Source: Candidatus Nanohalarchaeota archaeon (GTDB lineage Archaea; Nanohalarchaeota; Nanosalinia; Nanosalinales; Nanosalinaceae). From it: a DNA stretch of 64,000 nt. The notes below the pieces were generated by a model. The model saw only the letters and a list, made by a program, of their open reading frames with translations. It was not told the DNA's origin and searched no databases. Positions 4,792 to 45,169 of this stretch are shown here, one piece after another. The stretch spans positions 514,442 through 578,441 of the forward strand of contig JALDAJ010000001.1 of assembly GCA_022729235.1 (NCBI GenBank). Direction: 5' to 3'. The first letter of the stretch is position 1. Each line of letters begins with the position of its first letter. The translations under genes were made by a program, and so were the position numbers.

Positions 4792-5571
4792 ATGGAAGAA
4801 CTGCTTTCAAAGCTCTCGCGCGACCCTGACTCTCACAAAGGTGAGAACGGTCGTGTCGGCATAATAGGTGGCAGTGTTGACTATACAGGCGCTCCGGCGC
4901 TCGCCGGTAAGGCTGCGTTGAGGACGGGTTGTGACCTGGCGGAGATTTTAACGTCTGAGAAGTCACGGGAAGTGGTCGCGTCATTCTCCGAGAACCTGAT
5001 AGTAGACTCTTACCCGTCCGGCTACCTGCGGAGGGGTGGTGCTGATGACGCTATTGAGCTGGCGGAGAGGAGTGACTCTGTTGTTATCGGTCCTGGTCTC
5101 GGGGAGCCGGATGGACGGGCTGTGAAGAAAGTGTTGTCCGATATAAAGGTGCCGACAGTCGTCGATGCGGACGCGATAGAACCAGCACTGGAAGCTGAGC
5201 TTTCGGACGCGGTCCTGACACCGCACCGTGGAGAGGCCGAGGTCATCGAGGAGCGCTGCGGTTCGATACAGGCGTTCGCAAAAGAGCGCAACGCTGTCGT
5301 AGTTGTCAAAGGTCCAACGGACATGATACACACGCCGAGCTATGTTTTCGAGAACGAGACAGGTACTTCTGCTATGACGGTCGGCGGAACAGGTGACACA
5401 TTAGCAGGTGTGATCGCGTCACTGATGTCACAGGGTCTTGAACCTGTAGAAGCTGCAAGGCTAGGAACATGGATCAACGGTAAGGCAGGAGAGCTGGCGG
5501 CGGAGAAGTATGGAAACGGTATGGTGGCGACGGACATGCTGGAGAACATTCCTGAGGTGATGTGGCAATAA
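4792..5571 (+). CDS. nnrD: ADP-dependent NAD(P)H-hydrate dehydratase
   Basis: 259-residue ribokinase-like protein of the YjeF C-terminal family. HKGENGRVGIIGGS is the family N-terminal signature and VVIGPGLG the central glycine loop. TPHRGEAEVI and GGTGDTLAGVIAS carry the nucleotide site and catalytic Asp. It repairs hydrated NADH and NADPH at the expense of ADP. The N-terminal NAD(P)HX epimerase domain found in fused YjeF proteins is absent and is not encoded nearby. The gene is divergent from gap, a GAPDH enzyme that can itself generate hydrated NAD(P)H, so the pairing makes biochemical sense. Confidence 0.92.
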   Translation: MEELLSKLSRDPDSHKGENGRVGIIGGSVDYTGAPALAGKAALRTGCDLAEILTSEKSREVVASFSENLIVDSYPSGYLRRGGADDAIELAERSDSVVIGPGLGEPDGRAVKKVLSDIKVPTVVDADAIEPALEAELSDAVLTPHRGEAEVIEERCGSIQAFAKERNAVVVVKGPTDMIHTPSYVFENETGTSAMTVGGTGDTLAGVIASLMSQGLEPVEAARLGTWINGKAGELAAEKYGNGMVATDMLENIPEVMWQ

Positions 5572-37425: not shown

Positions 37426-39330
37426 TCAGAGCCCGGGCATCACGTCGGCAACTATCTCTCTTATCATCGATCTTATCTCTTCATCCTGGAGAAGTTCCTG
37501 GATGAAATCTCTTGCCCGCGCCATCTGAATATCTTCCCCTACCTCTTCAACCACTGCGTGAGCCTCCTCTACTTCGTGTTCTTCCAGCAGAAGCCGTTCG
37601 GCTTCGTCAATCTGTTGAACATGTTCTTCTTCCAGTTCATCTCTATCTCTTAGTCTTTCAATATTCTGGTAAGTATCCTCCGCCATTTTAATTCTCTGCA
37701 GGTCTTCCTGGCCCTCCTTTGTCTCTCTCAGTTCTTCTAGTGTATTCTGGAACTCTGCTTCGGTTATCTCTCCTTCAGCTACTTGACCGGCTTCTTCATA
37801 TGCCTGATCAAATAAGTCTTGAACTTCTTCCGATCTTTCGTATGTAAGTTCGTCTTCCAGTTCTTCAGGAAGTCCGTCTCTCTGGATCTGGCGTTCCATT
37901 CTCGTGTCCATCATTCTCACTGTTCTATCGTCTGTTTCTGCATATTTGCTCTCGATTCTCTCAATCTGTCGGTAGTACTGCATAATTTCTTGCATCTCTT
38001 CCTGGTGCTGATGCATCTGGTCGTTTAACTGTGAAAGTTCTCTTTCCGCGGCTCCAGTCTCTCCCTGATTCAGGAGGTATTCTACCTCGCTTTTCTGACT
38101 GCTTATGTCTTCAGATCCTTCTATACCGGCTCTTTCCATCTGCTCGATTCTCTCCTCCATTTCTCCAAGGTTTCGTTGGATTTCATAGCTTTCTACTATG
38201 TTCCTGGCTTCAGCGACTTCGTAGTCTTCTAGATGGTTCTGCACATCCACTCTCATTTCCTGGACCTCGTCCTCTGATAGATCAGTTCTTCTTTCCAGTC
38301 TGTCCAGCTCGTCAAGGATGCGGTCCTCCGATCTCTCCTTTTCCTGGTGAATGTCGCAACTTACAGGAATCTCCTCCCATCCAGGAGGTATAGGGTCATC
38401 TTCTTCCAGTTCCTCGCAGCTCCCGTCAGGACCTGCCGCGAAACGTCCATGTTCTAAGCCTTCGGGATCTCCTGCTATAGCTATCATTTCTCCATCTTCT
38501 ACGCTTGTATCTGCTTCCCTGTCAGTTCTCAGGTCTAGGTGCTCTTTTGAACCTCTTCTTATGTCTGAATCGATTCTATTCCAGTCACCGCCTTCTATAC
38601 GGTAGAAGCTTACGTCGGCGTGTCTCCGTGTTATGAAAAGGTCGTTGCTTGAAACCCATGCGCTGGAAACGTCCGCATCGATGTAAAGCTCGATAACATC
38701 GAGATTTTCACCGGAGACCTCTACAACGCTGTAAACGACGAGATCATCAGGTAAATCATAGTCTGTTTCCTCTTCCAGCTCTACTACTACACCTCCCCTA
38801 TCTCTTGTATCTCTGGCAGGTTGAACGGTTACTTCATGCCACGCGGATATGGACTCTCCCAGTAACACTCCCGGTCTTTCACGCAGTTCTTCTCCTGAAA
38901 CTGTTATCTCCGCACCTGAATCATGATAATCAACTTCGAAACCTTCAACGTCTGGATCGAAAACTGGCTCGGGTTCTGGTTCGTCAACTACTTCTTCGCC
39001 AGTTACATTTATGTCTTCAGAAAGACCGGTCACGGTGTCCGCATCGGCATCCATTACTCTAACTCTTAGCCTCTCCTCCTCGCCCGTAACCCGGTGCTGG
39101 AAGTATGGATCTCCGGTTCTGTAAGACTGACCGTCTATCCGGAAAATAAACCTGTAGTTTTCTTCCACGTCTTCAGGAAGATCTACACGGCTCTCAAGGA
39201 TCTCTCCTATCTCATACTTTTCCTGGTCAAAAACCAGCTCAAAATCTTCTTCCTCGACTTCTGCTGTTGCTGAAAGAGTTAAAGCCAGTATGAAGATTCC
39301 AAGTACGGCTATACGTATTTTATATCTCAC
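37426..39330 (-). CDS. Secreted coiled-coil protein with PGF-pre-PGF-like domain
   Basis: 634 residues. The signal peptide is IRIAVLGIFILALTLSATAE. It has an N-terminal Ig-like domain (about 25-115). A domain at about 125-320 with VVYSVVEVSGENLDVIELYI, SSAWVSSNDLF and DVSFYRIEGGDWNRI resembles PGF-pre-PGF. Then comes a long Glu/Arg-rich coiled coil (about 340-634; DELDRLERRTDLSEDEVQEM and many similar heptads). There is no C-terminal anchor. It resembles part of the 17.6-19.4 kb surface protein, and could form a rod on the cell surface. Exact role unknown. Confidence 0.75.
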   Translation of the reverse strand: MRYKIRIAVLGIFILALTLSATAEVEEEDFELVFDQEKYEIGEILESRVDLPEDVEENYRFIFRIDGQSYRTGDPYFQHRVTGEEERLRVRVMDADADTVTGLSEDINVTGEEVVDEPEPEPVFDPDVEGFEVDYHDSGAEITVSGEELRERPGVLLGESISAWHEVTVQPARDTRDRGGVVVELEEETDYDLPDDLVVYSVVEVSGENLDVIELYIDADVSSAWVSSNDLFITRRHADVSFYRIEGGDWNRIDSDIRRGSKEHLDLRTDREADTSVEDGEMIAIAGDPEGLEHGRFAAGPDGSCEELEEDDPIPPGWEEIPVSCDIHQEKERSEDRILDELDRLERRTDLSEDEVQEMRVDVQNHLEDYEVAEARNIVESYEIQRNLGEMEERIEQMERAGIEGSEDISSQKSEVEYLLNQGETGAAERELSQLNDQMHQHQEEMQEIMQYYRQIERIESKYAETDDRTVRMMDTRMERQIQRDGLPEELEDELTYERSEEVQDLFDQAYEEAGQVAEGEITEAEFQNTLEELRETKEGQEDLQRIKMAEDTYQNIERLRDRDELEEEHVQQIDEAERLLLEEHEVEEAHAVVEEVGEDIQMARARDFIQELLQDEEIRSMIREIVADVMPGL

Positions 39331-39375: not shown

Positions 39376-39406
39376 TGGCGGGGGGGTGATTTGAACCCTT
39401 ATCACG
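39376..39406 (-). repeat. Degenerate tRNA-Pro 3'-end copy (outermost)
   Basis: 39376-39398 matches the last 23 bases of the tRNA-Pro gene at 19 of 23 positions, in the same orientation. The T-arm is broken, so it is not a working tRNA end. The following bases to 39406 (ttatcacg) are shared exactly with the copy at 40332, so the two copies have a 19-base identical core (39388-39406 and 40344-40362). A 10-bp palindrome (gactgattta/taaatcagtc) follows at once. Confidence 0.65.
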
Positions 39407-39505
39407 ACTGATTTAGTAAATCAGTCACGAATTAACGGTTTAATAAACGGCTAAGGCCGGATATTCAACCTATTAAGGCATGTTCTATGTCAGTATAGTT
39501 CGAAA

Positions 39506-40331: not shown

Positions 40332-40354
40332 TGGCAGGGCTGGGATTTGAACCC
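40332..40354 (-). repeat. Exact 23-bp copy of the tRNA-Pro 3' end
   Basis: 40332-40354 is identical over 23 bases to 41185-41207, the T-loop to discriminator base of the tRNA-Pro gene, and lies 853 bases away on its 3' side in the same orientation. Beyond base 23 the sequences diverge at once on both sides. This is the expected form of a displaced attachment site. The span between contains a toxin-antitoxin pair. Confidence 0.75.
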
Positions 40355-40430
40355 TTATCACGGCTAGGGATGAGTTCCAAGGCGTAGTTATTTATTATTT
40401 TATGACATCATTATAAACTGTGATAAACTT

Positions 40431-40676
40431 ATGCCGACTGTCAGTGTAAACATCCCTGAGAAAATGAAGGAAAAGATGAAGGAACTGAGCGAGGAAGGGA
40501 TGTATCAGAATGAATCTGAGTACATCCGTGAAGCTCTTAGGAACAAGATCATGTCTGATACTGGTTTGACTCCTGAAGAGGAAGAACTAGTTGTAGAAAG
40601 ACTTCAAAGAATGGATGAAAGAGAGAAAAAGGGTAAAACTCTGGAAGAGCTGTCCGAGGAACTTGGTTTAGAATAG
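40431..40676 (+). CDS. Ribbon-helix-helix antitoxin (ParD/CopG-like)
   Basis: 81 residues. N-terminal strand PTVSVNIPEKMKEKMKEL then the helix pair NESEYIREALRNKIM is a classic RHH DNA-binding fold. The C-terminal helix EEEELVVERLQRMDE would bind the toxin. The next gene starts on the base after its stop. It is inside the tRNA-bounded island. Confidence 0.8.
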   Translation: MPTVSVNIPEKMKEKMKELSEEGMYQNESEYIREALRNKIMSDTGLTPEEEELVVERLQRMDEREKKGKTLEELSEELGLE

Positions 40677-40973
40677 ATGGAGTTAGTTGTAGAGCCTGAA
40701 GCTGAAGATGACTTGACGCAGTTTAAAGAAGAGCATCAGCAGTATGTATTGGAGCAGTTGAAAGAATTGAAACAAAGTCCTACTGGTCATGAAAGTTCTG
40801 ATACCATCCGTGTTAAGGGAAGACCTGTGTTCAAATATAAGATGAAGGAGGGTGATAGAGGTGGTAAAGATTTTAGGGCTGTCTACGATATAATTGATAG
40901 TGAGGTCCGAGTTGTAGCTATTTTCCATAGAGATACAGGTTATGACAAGGAAGAGCTGTCTGAAAGGCTTTAA
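40677..40973 (+). CDS. RelE/ParE-family toxin
   Basis: 98 residues. LVVEPEAEDDLTQFKEEHQQ, then RVKGRPVFKYKM, DFRAVYDIIDSEVRVVAIFHR and GYDKEELSERL follow the RelE/ParE fold order (two helices, four-stranded sheet). RelE-type members cut mRNA on the ribosome. It is immediately behind the RHH gene, forming a type II toxin-antitoxin unit that could stabilise the island. Confidence 0.8.
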   Translation: MELVVEPEAEDDLTQFKEEHQQYVLEQLKELKQSPTGHESSDTIRVKGRPVFKYKMKEGDRGGKDFRAVYDIIDSEVRVVAIFHRDTGYDKEELSERL

Positions 40974-41059: not shown

Positions 41060-41122
41060 TAGCAGAGCTGGGATTTGAACCCCAGCCGCAAATCGGAGAT
41101 TTGCTTGACGGCATCAAATCTT
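41060..41122 (-). repeat. tRNA-like repeat unit with 3'-end copy (21/23) and hairpin
   Basis: 41060-41082 matches the tRNA-Pro 3' end at 21 of 23 bases. The rest of the 63-base unit contains the hairpin GCAAATC-GGA-GATTTGC (41088-41104). It aligns along its whole length with the adjacent unit 41123-41184. No acceptor 5' half or D-arm can be found, so it is not a complete tRNA. Confidence 0.6.
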
Positions 41123-41184
41123 GGGCAGGGCCGCGATTTGAACTCACGCGAAAATCGAAGATTTTCTAAGTGGTTCTAAATCCA
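41123..41184 (-). repeat. tRNA-like repeat unit with 3'-end copy (19/23) and hairpin
   Basis: A 62-base unit that abuts the intact tRNA. 41123-41145 matches the tRNA 3' end at 19 of 23 bases. It contains GAAAATC-GAA-GATTTTC (41150-41166). Compared with its neighbour, the stem bases differ on both arms so that pairing is kept. Confidence 0.6.
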
Positions 41185-41257
41185 TGGCAGGGCTGGGATT
41201 TGAACCCAGGTCCGTACCGCCCCGGGGTACGATGATAGTCCACTACACTACCCCGCC
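41185..41257 (-). tRNA. tRNA-Pro (anticodon GGG)
   Basis: Complete cloverleaf. The acceptor stem GGCGGGG/CCCTGCC has one G-T pair. The short D-stem GTG/CAT matches those of archaeal tRNAs. The anticodon stem is GTACC/GGTAC with loop CCGGGGC, and the T-arm is CTGGG-TTCAAAT-CCCAG. The discriminator is A73. Anticodon GGG (41223-41221) with G37 and A73 fits proline. The loop has C33 instead of the near-universal U33, which is odd. No CCA is encoded and no intron is needed. Four copies of its 3' end follow downstream. Confidence 0.85.
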
Positions 41258-41414
41258 AAAATCACCTTACGCGATTTTGTGTGGATACAAAAACTCTCGC
41301 GAGTTTCGCACCCGCCGAACTTCTGAACTCGAAGACCTAGAGAGTCTTCTGTGACCAGCAACCTCGGAGAGGTTGCGGAGGTTCGATCATCATAAGGCAT
41401 TCAAAGAATGCCTT
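41258..41414. repeat. Cluster of short hairpins upstream of tRNA-Pro
   Basis: Within the 213-base gap between the tRNA and the phosphatase gene I see five perfect stems in a row. AAAATC/GATTTT is at 41258-41278 and AAACTC-TCGC-GAGTTT at 41291-41306. GAAGAC/GTCTTC is at 41331-41349, GCAACCTC-GGA-GAGGTTGC at 41358-41376, and AAGGCATT-CAAAG-AATGCCTT at 41394-41414. The stem sequences differ but pairing is perfect. The promoter of the phosphatase gene (ttttaaac, about 41439-41446) and the palindrome GACCGCGGTC (41450-41459) follow. Confidence 0.5.
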
Positions 41415-41470
41415 CCAGTAGGATAGTCGCAGAGTAAAATTTTAAACGTGACCGCGGTCTTCTCGGATTC

Positions 41471-41854
41471 ATGAGACTCCTCTATATCTGCACCGGTAAC
41501 TCGTTCAGGAGTCCGGTTGCTGAGGCGTTGACGAGGAAGTACCACCCAGACTGGGAAGTAGAGTCTGCGGGGACGGATGCTGTTGACCATGTCGCTGAAA
41601 ATGCGAGGGTCTTGTTAGAGCAAGAAGAGGCTCTAGAATATGTGAAGCCGTCGCCGGACCAGGTATCACAGCGAGCCGTCAGTGAGGCGGATTTGATTGT
41701 GGTGATGATGCCCTTGCATAAGGACTTCCTGCAGGAGAACTTTGACGCCGATGATAAGATCGAGGTCTGGAGCATCGAGGACCCGATAAATCCGGGTGTG
41801 GAACCGGAGGAAGCTTTCAGGGAGATAAAGAAGAGAGTTGAGTCGATGGATTAG
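41471..41854 (+). CDS. Low-molecular-weight protein tyrosine phosphatase/arsenate reductase family
   Basis: 127 residues. The P-loop CTGNSFR (Cys7-x5-Arg13) followed by SPVAEAL is the LMW-PTPase signature. The general acid Asp is in IEDPINPG, matching the usual DP motif. It dephosphorylates phosphotyrosine, or in relatives reduces arsenate; the second-Cys pair needed for thioredoxin-coupled arsenate reduction is not seen, so phosphatase is more likely. Leaderless promoter upstream. Confidence 0.85.
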   Translation: MRLLYICTGNSFRSPVAEALTRKYHPDWEVESAGTDAVDHVAENARVLLEQEEALEYVKPSPDQVSQRAVSEADLIVVMMPLHKDFLQENFDADDKIEVWSIEDPINPGVEPEEAFREIKKRVESMD

Positions 41855-44373: not shown

Positions 44374-45087
44374 CTAGTTGGCAACTTCGTCTTCTGGCTT
44401 CACGTGTAGGTCGCCGAGGAACTCTTCCTGTATGCACTGCACTTTCTTGTCGTTTTCCAGGTGGAGAACGTGCATGAATTTCTCTATCCGCTCCTCATTG
44501 CTGTTTTCTTCAAGTAGCCGGGAGAACTCTATCTTATCCTTTGAGGACACCATGTTTCTTACCCGGGAGAAAAGCGAGTTTATCTTATCATTAAGCGTTT
44601 CTTCCTGCATCTCGAACTGCTGGTCTATCTCGTGGCGTTCCTCCTGCCTCTCTTCTCTCCTCTCCTTGACTTCTAGCGCGTCTTCAAGCGCGCCTTTCAA
44701 CTCGTCAAGCTCCATCCTGCGTTTTGGTCGTGCCTTGACCGGCATCTCGAGTTCAGGTCCTGTTTCAAGACCGGGACCTTCATTTTCTTCCTCGAAGACA
44801 TCATCGAGGTCGCCCTCGAAGTCCATAGGATTCTCCTGTGGTTCTTCCTCCTGTAATGGGTCTTCTCCGTCGATAGCCATCGACTTCATGTTCAATAATG
44901 CGGCGCATATCCTGATGGCACGCGCGGATACAGTTAAGTCTAGCTCCTGTAATTCTTCGATGTATTCCCTGTATCGACTTGCCAGGACCGTGATATCGAC
45001 ATTATGCGGGTCCATGTCCCGGGTCAGAAGTTCAAGAGTCTCCTCCCAGGGCTGTTCCTTCAGTACCTGAGCTTCGTGCTGTTCCAT
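44374..45087 (-). CDS. scpA: Segregation and condensation protein A (kleisin)
   Basis: 237 residues from the ATG at 45087. The N-terminal helix pair LELLTRDMDPHNVDITVLASRYREYIEEL and LDLTVSARAIRICAALLNMKS is the SMC-binding kleisin head. A long acidic linker (about 90-165) follows. The C-terminal winged helix is about 185-237 (EERIEKFMHVLHLENDKKVQCIQEE). It bridges the two SMC heads. The upstream gap to smc contains hairpins that resemble those near the tRNA. Confidence 0.88.
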   Translation of the reverse strand: MEQHEAQVLKEQPWEETLELLTRDMDPHNVDITVLASRYREYIEELQELDLTVSARAIRICAALLNMKSMAIDGEDPLQEEEPQENPMDFEGDLDDVFEEENEGPGLETGPELEMPVKARPKRRMELDELKGALEDALEVKERREERQEERHEIDQQFEMQEETLNDKINSLFSRVRNMVSSKDKIEFSRLLEENSNEERIEKFMHVLHLENDKKVQCIQEEFLGDLHVKPEDEVAN

Positions 45088-45117
45088 TATTTGGGCCCTC
45101 CTAGAGACCCTTCCCCC

Positions 45118-45169
45118 GCAAATTCCAAAGGAATTTGCTATAAGGAGCAACGTGTTGCCACGATGCTCC
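45118..45169. repeat. Two hairpins between smc and scpA
   Basis: GCAAATTCC-AAA-GGAATTTGC (45118-45138) has a 9-bp stem. GGAGCA-A-CGTG-TTGC-CACG-A-TGCTCC (45144-45169) has 6 plus 4 bp around one A-A mismatch and a 4-base loop. The first has the same GCAAA-loop-TTTGC design as the tRNA-adjacent hairpin at 41088-41104. They lie in the 127-base leader between the smc stop and the scpA start. Confidence 0.5.

Follow-up and report, generated by a model that had tools for sequence, protein, structure and literature searches.

Small two-hairpin inserts at tRNA genes and other transcribed loci of nanohaloarchaeal genomes

The hairpins around the tRNA-Pro(GGG) gene of a nanohaloarchaeon are copies of a family of small inserts of about 45-110 nt, whose full unit consists of two hairpins, here called M1 and M2. 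They lie in a window of 64,000 nucleotides, which is the whole stretch of DNA that was analyzed, within a genome of 1,027,595 bp on one contig (G000). The best reading, probable to a modest degree, is that the inserts duplicate their target and are afterwards held to their structure as RNA. As far as we found, the family had no name, and a search of open-access PMC papers gave no description of these repeats.

The locus is read on the minus strand, which is the strand of the tRNA-Pro (Table 1). Downstream of the tRNA lie two trailer cassettes. The T-arm complement of the first can also be given as GGATTTAGAACC, and its M2 (41145-41171) scores 28.1 bits with our covariance model R1, to whose training set this copy belonged. 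The 3'-end copy in this cassette is identical in 20 of 20 nt to the 3' end of the tRNA-Pro of the nanohaloarchaeal genome G015 and differs from the tRNA-Pro of the window. At this position G002 has a single cassette of the kind, whose stem is longer (GAAAATCTC..GAGATTTTC), and G015 has none. The second cassette matches R1 at 41083-41109 (26.0 bits), and its direct repeat reaches a score of 18, with a null maximum of 13 in 1500. On the upstream side, M1 and M2 interrupt the loop of an older leader hairpin (CGAAC..GTTCG). No insert is present there in G015, where the empty site reads CGAACTT-TCAG-AAGTTCG (locus L003). The leader M2 matches R1 at 41326-41354 (21.7 bits), and a similar M1+M2 is carried by G001 (79.6% over 49 nt). 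Hairpin A has a counterpart at the same position in G015 (AAGCCAC-CCTGT-GTGGCTT), with five of the seven pairs unchanged and two compensated. The region of hairpin C is 83% identical to G015 over 148 nt, tRNA included. Where the window has GGCGGGT, G015 has GGCGGGGT; this 5' copy is too short for significance alone. The TATA-like element probably serves as promoter of a leader-tRNA-trailer transcript, as judged from its sequence, and TTTAAAATTT is located upstream of the tRNA-Pro leader of G002 too.

Table 1. Features at the tRNA-Pro(GGG) locus (window positions)
Feature	Position	Strand	Basis
tRNA-Pro(GGG), intact, intronless, host gene of the inserts	41185..41257	-	ARAGORN; Rfam RF00005, 48.6 bits
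Trailer cassette 1, 62 nt: T-arm complement (TGGATTTAGAACC), M2 hairpin, second tRNA 3'-end copy (GTTCAAATCGCGGCCCTGCC)	41123..41184	-	sequence
Trailer cassette 2, 63 nt: T-loop complement (GATTTGA), M2 hairpin GCAAATC..GATTTGC, third tRNA 3'-end copy	41060..41122	-	
Leader M1 + M2: GCAACCTC..GAGGTTGC, linker TGGTCAC, AGAAGAC..GTCTTCGA	41326..41378	-	
Stem within leader, GAAGAC-TCTCTAG-GTCTTC	41331-41349	tRNA strand	
Leader hairpin A, AAGGCATTC-TTT-GAATGCCTT, followed by ATGATGAT	41394..41414	-	
Leader hairpin C, AAACTC-GCGA-GAGTTT, inside the 70 nt upstream of the tRNA	41291..41306	-	
Partial tRNA 5'-end copy GGCGGGT, ahead of hairpin C	41310..41316	-	sequence
TATA-like TTTAAAATTTTA	41435..41446	-	sequence only
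Exact 23-nt copy of tRNA-Pro 3' end, ~850 bp downstream, no M2 beside it	40332..40354	-	0 mismatches

In the surroundings of the locus, a low-molecular-weight phosphatase-like gene (41471-41854) is located between the NFACT gene and the tRNA-Pro, while in G002 the NFACT gene directly adjoins the tRNA-Pro. Searched against contigs, the NFACT protein had no more than a distant match, in Acidilobaceae. Positions 37426-39330 of the minus strand encode a protein of 634 aa that contains a Glu-rich, probably coiled-coil section and has no Pfam match. Rfam detected only the tRNA in the window, and in 20 related loci (E<=1) tRNAs plus weak chance matches.

Perfect stems with loops of 3-8 nt were counted and compared with dinucleotide shuffles. 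Between 41060 and 41450, 8 stems of at least 6 bp are present, where the shuffles have a mean of 0.48 and a maximum of 3, and none of 1000 reaches the count. Four of the stems have at least 7 bp (mean 0.14; 0/1000) and two at least 8 bp. The 64-kb window overall contains 21 stems of at least 7 bp and ten shuffles of it give 6-22, which is the level of chance; the excess of hairpins is therefore local to 41060-41450. That the hairpins are chance palindromes within an AT-rich spacer is extremely improbable. It agrees with the missing excess over the window as a whole, but the local count, the restriction of model matches to the phylum and the covariation described below contradict it. The chance reading is refuted for 41060-41450 and is possible for a hairpin at 45118.

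The initial annotation had reported several perfect stems around the tRNA and had named a shuffle control as the result that could overturn them; the counts above bear it out for 41060-41450. GCAAATC-GGA-GATTTGC (41088-41104), GAAAATC-GAA-GATTTTC (41150-41166) and GCAACCTC-GGA-GAGGTTGC (41358-41376) are all present as described. The hairpin AAGGCATTC-AAA-GAATGCCTT exists as well, but with a 9-bp stem and a 3-base loop and not, as proposed, with 8 bp and five loop bases. A hairpin at 45118-45138, listed as a relative, has a genuine 9-bp stem, but it neither matches the family model nor is flanked by a direct repeat above chance. It lies in the smc-scpA junction (45085-45150), where two adjacent hairpins, GGAGCA..TGCTCC and GCAAATTCC..GGAATTTGC, form a similar two-hairpin layout without M2 model match. 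The purine-rich 3-base loops of the same description proved to be an artefact of reading the plus strand. On the transcribed minus strand these loops are TCC and TTC, and over the whole family the loop length varies from 2 to more than 10. Overlooked were the composition of the unit, which joins a pair of hairpins to a copy of a tRNA end, its position on the tRNA strand, and the use of these modules as bodies of tRNA introns and of insertions in the RNase P RNA.

On the tRNA strand the recurrent module consists of M1, a short linker and M2 with the signature A[GAA..stem..TTC]G(A). An alignment of 39 M2 copies has 97.4% of its cells paired and double changes in 5 of 7 pairs. Its covariation score is 0.517 compared with 0.156 after shuffling (0/500) and at most 0.097 in slid controls, and 48 cells are double-changed compared with 11.7 in the shuffled alignments. 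The copies were picked partly by eye for having stems, which inflates the percentage of paired cells and probably also the covariation score. The foot of M2, an A 5' and a G 3' of the stem, is present in nearly all 39 copies. A less biased view comes from the loose pattern AGAAN{8,24}TTCGA, in which the inner bases need not pair; it has 490 matches in comparison to 283 for the reversed pattern. Among about 100 matches listed for it, we read about 16 as having three or more extra base pairs, compared with an expectation of about 1.6. Between orthologous copies, compensatory changes were found twice in leader hairpin A and once each in the M2 of the tRNA-Pro(TGG) trailer and of the tRNA-Lys trailer; a count for leader hairpin D was out of register and does not enter here. 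M2 is not claimed to be a kink-turn or a box C/D element, as the tandem G.A is not constant. Extra complete tRNA genes or type II variable arms were also rejected, since the T-arm copies come without a 5' half and most of their T-stems are unpaired.

The covariance model R1, built from M2 copies as the initial annotation had suggested, finds the family genome-wide, with 39 matches at E<=0.05 and 52 at E<=1 in the window genome. R1 matches occur in 21 of 28 nanohaloarchaeal genomes and in none of 12 other, more distant archaea, so among the genomes searched the family is restricted to the phylum. The nanohaloarchaeal status of all 28 genomes of the same order is derived from two identified members, Ca. 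Nanohalococcus occultus SVXNc (G005) and Ca. Nanohalovita haloferacivicina BNXNv (G008); the window genome belongs to the same family. Match counts range from 0 to 39, with 39 in G000, 21 in G015, 19 in G002, 17 each in G020 and in G009, which we take to be Ca. Nanohalobium constans, 14 in G014 and 12 in G005. These counts are biased to the genomes that supplied training sequences (G000, G002, G014, G015, G020 and G023), while G005, G009, G012 and G024 are independent. Ten arbitrary 20-kb control stretches of the window genome contain 2 R1 matches altogether.

Of about 39 loci grouped by hand, about 20 are tRNA introns, tRNA leaders and trailers, RNase P RNA or flanks of rRNA; tRNA, RNase P RNA and rRNA loci make up an estimated 2% or so of the genome. 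Nearly all others lie where protein genes start, end or adjoin one another, and many of these genes serve translation. The two-hairpin block is the body of most tRNA introns in the window genome and recurs in tRNA trailers and leaders, in the RNase P RNA, before the 16S and behind the 23S rRNA. The M1 hairpins of the RNase P RNA and behind the 23S rRNA are nearly identical. Among protein genes, whose names were read off the sequences and not profile-tested, leader copies are found at L18e and L3, and end or junction copies at rplN, thermosome, aIF2-gamma, Spt5-L11-L1-L10, FtsZ, PheS/PheT, L30, ATP synthase A, topoisomerase VI and RNase Z, where the element is antisense to the gene. At several operon junctions (L079, and L088 near 5402-5432) the insert makes a mini-ORF whose terminal GTGA or ATGA overlaps the next start codon, which suggests translational coupling via the insert.

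This distribution can also be explained without mobility, by RNA elements that function in the processing or regulation of the translation machinery and were spread by descent and duplication. We regard this as possible but doubtful. The concentration on tRNAs, RNase P RNA and rRNA flanks is in line with it, as are the copies in operons of the ribosomal proteins L14, L18e, L30, L3, L10, L1 and L11, of aIF2-gamma, PheS/PheT and the thermosome, the compensatory changes between orthologues, and the tRNA-Tyr and tRNA-Lys leaders that are kept across genera. However, relatives are often empty at the same site (6 or more rplN junctions, three RNase P RNAs), the copy number varies from 0 to 39 among related genomes, and it is hard to see a regulatory meaning in repeats of coding sequence like GTGGTGTAAAA, which lies at the stop codon of rplN.

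Copies of the target ends accompany the inserts. Downstream of tRNAs, the hairpin sits between a T-arm complement and a second copy of the tRNA 3' end. Such 3'-end copies (at least 13/17 bases) were found for 8 of 32 tRNAs in G000, 8 of 21 in G002 and 2 of 24 in G015, where 0.00 are expected. Copies of the 5' end (at least 12/14 bases) lie upstream of 3/32, 3/21 and 3/24 tRNAs in the same genomes (expected 0.02-0.03). Among protein genes, the insert at the rplN 3' junction of G000 has a direct repeat of 11/11 (GTGGTGTAAAA), which includes the stop codon, the thermosome 3' end has one of 14/16 and locus L159 one of 10/10, but only 3 of 20 sites tested exceed chance with a direct-repeat score of 10 (null 0.0045). 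Target duplication would account for these repeats. An insertion that duplicates its target agrees with the copied ends 5' and 3' of tRNAs and at the ends of genes, as it leaves one gene intact and can survive.

The rplN junction is empty in G006, G007, G008, G009 and others (6 or more), and G002 and G020 carry independent inserts, that of G002 differing from the one in G000, which shows gain or loss. Similarly, the RNase P RNA contains M1+M2 in G000, lacks it at that place in G015, G008 and G007, and has an M1+M2 of different sequence in G003. The RNase P RNA of G000 (L054, 126-609) is about 480 nt long because of at least two hairpin insertions; it scores under the Rfam gathering cut-off and pipelines may miss it. 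A missing RNase P RNA as the explanation of the odd tRNA leaders was rejected, as RF00373 was found in G000, with insertions. Other copies are old. The tRNA-Tyr leader is conserved in three genomes, the leader and trailer of tRNA-Lys are conserved across genera, and the trailers of tRNA-Lys(TTT) and tRNA-Pro(TGG) are kept between genera with compensatory change. This conservation of the trailers, together with the preserved tRNA-Tyr leader, indicates that the fold matters once it is present. The old conserved leaders and trailers (tRNA-Tyr, tRNA-Lys) may have a function and not be mobile DNA at all. Between G000 and G002 the copied end at tRNA-Lys has changed along with the tRNA, and to explain this, gene conversion, a repeated insertion or some functional link is required. 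Of the two options offered by the initial annotation, selection on structure is supported by the stem covariation and the compensatory changes between orthologous copies, and a palindromic mobile repeat by the empty orthologous sites, the target-like duplications and the similar copies at unlinked sites.

In G000, 17 of 32 surveyed tRNA genes contain introns, compared with 3 of 24 in G015. A nanohaloarchaeal study (PMC10266531) already gives 15/39 and 4/38 tRNA genes with introns, in passages that do not describe the repeats. A relaxed bulge-helix-bulge (BHB) motif at position 37/38, with the anticodon stem, a central helix of 4 bp and a 3-nt bulge, is present in 14 of the 17 introns of G000; a strict scan was too strict and recognized only 1/17. 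A tRNA-Met-like gene with a very long intron (L060 / L076), missed by tRNA searches, has nested hairpins like those of the tRNA-Ala intron (L037), with insertions inside hairpin loops.

As true BHB intron bodies are built from the same modules, all copies could be BHB introns, including those at tRNA ends and in mRNAs, with removal by the splicing endonuclease and the direct repeats being exon ends. Many inserts also contain an exon complement, and excision at the repeat would restore the gene. We consider this unlikely. In the trailers, those of the window included, no BHB motif was found whose splicing at the repeat would give back the tRNA (3/53 hits, all at unrelated positions), although such a scan recognizes 14 of 17 introns, and the element at RNase Z is antisense to its gene. 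The trailers are therefore not ordinary introns.

Since tRNA 3' ends are classic attachment sites, their copies could also be scars of serial integrations by tyrosine integrases, with the hairpins as sites of the integrase or of an excision factor. This reading is very unlikely and already disfavoured, because tRNA 5'-end copies, protein-gene repeats, hairpin bodies in introns and RNase P RNA, and a 60-nt spacing without element DNA are left unexplained by it. Integration of this kind should copy only tRNA or att cores, with element DNA between them; found were spacings of 60-110 nt, 5' copies and protein-gene sites. It does gain from two distant copies. In the region 40332-40973, an RHH antitoxin/ParE-like toxin pair lies between the tRNA-Pro(GGG) trailer and the exact 23-nt copy, and this copy is more likely the scar of an integrated element than a hairpin insert. 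Likewise, a 3'-half fragment of tRNA-Pro(TGG) is located about 850 bp from its tRNA with a nucleotidyltransferase-like gene between (L077). Possibly both tRNA-Pro genes host small integrated toxin-antitoxin islands. A diverged tRNA 3'-end copy at 39376-39426, beside a 9-bp hairpin (GACTGATTT..AAATCAGTC), has CGTGATAAGGGTTCAAATC in common with the 40332 copy and probably marks where another, older integrated element had its distal end.

For the family itself we prefer insertion with target duplication. Probably in the form of DNA, the units would insert into transcribed sequence at stable-RNA genes and operon junctions, so that each becomes flanked by two copies of its target. Insertion within 10-25 bases of either end of a tRNA gene would be harmless, because one complete tRNA stays and the spare end is displaced outwards; this would be why copied tRNA ends flank the hairpins. 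Insertions into the anticodon loop would persist only as BHB introns with an M1+M2 body. Once in place, the RNA appears to be held to its structure, as the stems change by compensation. Most likely the fold is kept because the hairpins pack up the surplus RNA, and the tRNA-end complement may mask the spare copy and in this way direct RNase P, RNase Z and the splicing endonuclease to the correct one. Mobility is inferred from sequence comparison, with a putative mobilising enzyme. Counting against insertion are the repeat length of 6-21 nt, which is unlike that of most transposases, and the stem sequences, which differ even where the repeats look fresh. A route through reverse transcriptase, as in SINE-like retroelements, was rejected, since RVT_1 is absent from G000 and from 17 of 18 other genomes searched. 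Of the target duplication of variable length with one conserved end that such elements would show, we observed a conserved M2 end and repeats of 6-21 nt, with only 3 of 20 protein-gene sites above chance.

The nearest known biology, by analogy, is the transposition of tRNA introns in Thermoproteales, for which a lineage-specific burst with similar bodies in unrelated tRNAs is reported (Fujishima et al. 2010, in PMC4090602), together with the model for tRNA-Thr of Caldiarchaeum, in which an intron is gained through a mobile element (PMC3293823). The shared traits are an intron burst, a proposed insertion of mobile DNA and copies of tRNA fragments beside the gene (PMC4090602, PMC3293823). In contrast, the nanohaloarchaeal body recurs outside introns, in the leaders and trailers of tRNAs, in RNase P RNA, beside rRNAs and at mRNA junctions, and the inserts bring copied tRNA ends with no BHB motif at trailers. 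Attachment-site scars of the SSV1 type (PMC3293823) likewise contain copied tRNA 3' ends in the same orientation, but the nanohaloarchaeal inserts have a spacing of 60-110 nt, 5'-end copies and targets other than tRNAs.

The nearest class of repeats are REP and GTAG palindromes, with a different foot motif. Like the REP and the GTAG- or CGTC-tagged RAYT palindromes (PMC3733652), the M2 copies are short dispersed stem-loops with one conserved foot and complementary stem changes, intergenic and sometimes dimeric. The families listed there are bacterial, have the foot GTAG or CGTC and are mostly extragenic, whereas the nanohaloarchaeal inserts have the foot A..G(A) and are concentrated in stable-RNA genes. 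Nearly all of the 39 M2 copies examined have this foot beside the stem in place of GTAG or CGTC. Very small dispersed repeats of cyanobacteria are reportedly inserted in rnpB and in intergenic regions. They would be tiny inserts in RNase P RNA likewise, and tRNA-end copies and tRNA introns are not said to belong to them. PATEs of Haloquadratum are palindrome-associated elements mobilised by IS200/IS605 transposases. Both they and the present inserts occur in halophilic archaea and have hairpin ends, but PATEs differ by longer, sequence-specific hairpins and are not known to duplicate their target.

Tentatively, and with clear reservation, the family may be an archaeal counterpart of the introner elements of eukaryotes, that is, a tiny mobile element with its own RNA fold that duplicates its target and would end up as a harmless leader or trailer, as an expansion of the RNase P RNA or, in the anticodon loop, as a ready-made BHB intron. 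If this is true, an introner-like element would be a general source of archaeal tRNA introns. The family touches the question of how archaeal tRNA introns originate and why they burst in single lineages, as between G000 and G015. It connects the bodies of introns with inserts that the same genomes carry at the ends of tRNAs, in RNase P RNA and at junctions of ribosomal-protein genes. As some cultivated relatives, Ca. Nanohalovita for one, have empty sites, intron gain by insertion becomes testable. It would also mean heavy non-coding insertion in symbiont genomes of roughly 1 Mb that are otherwise deemed streamlined.
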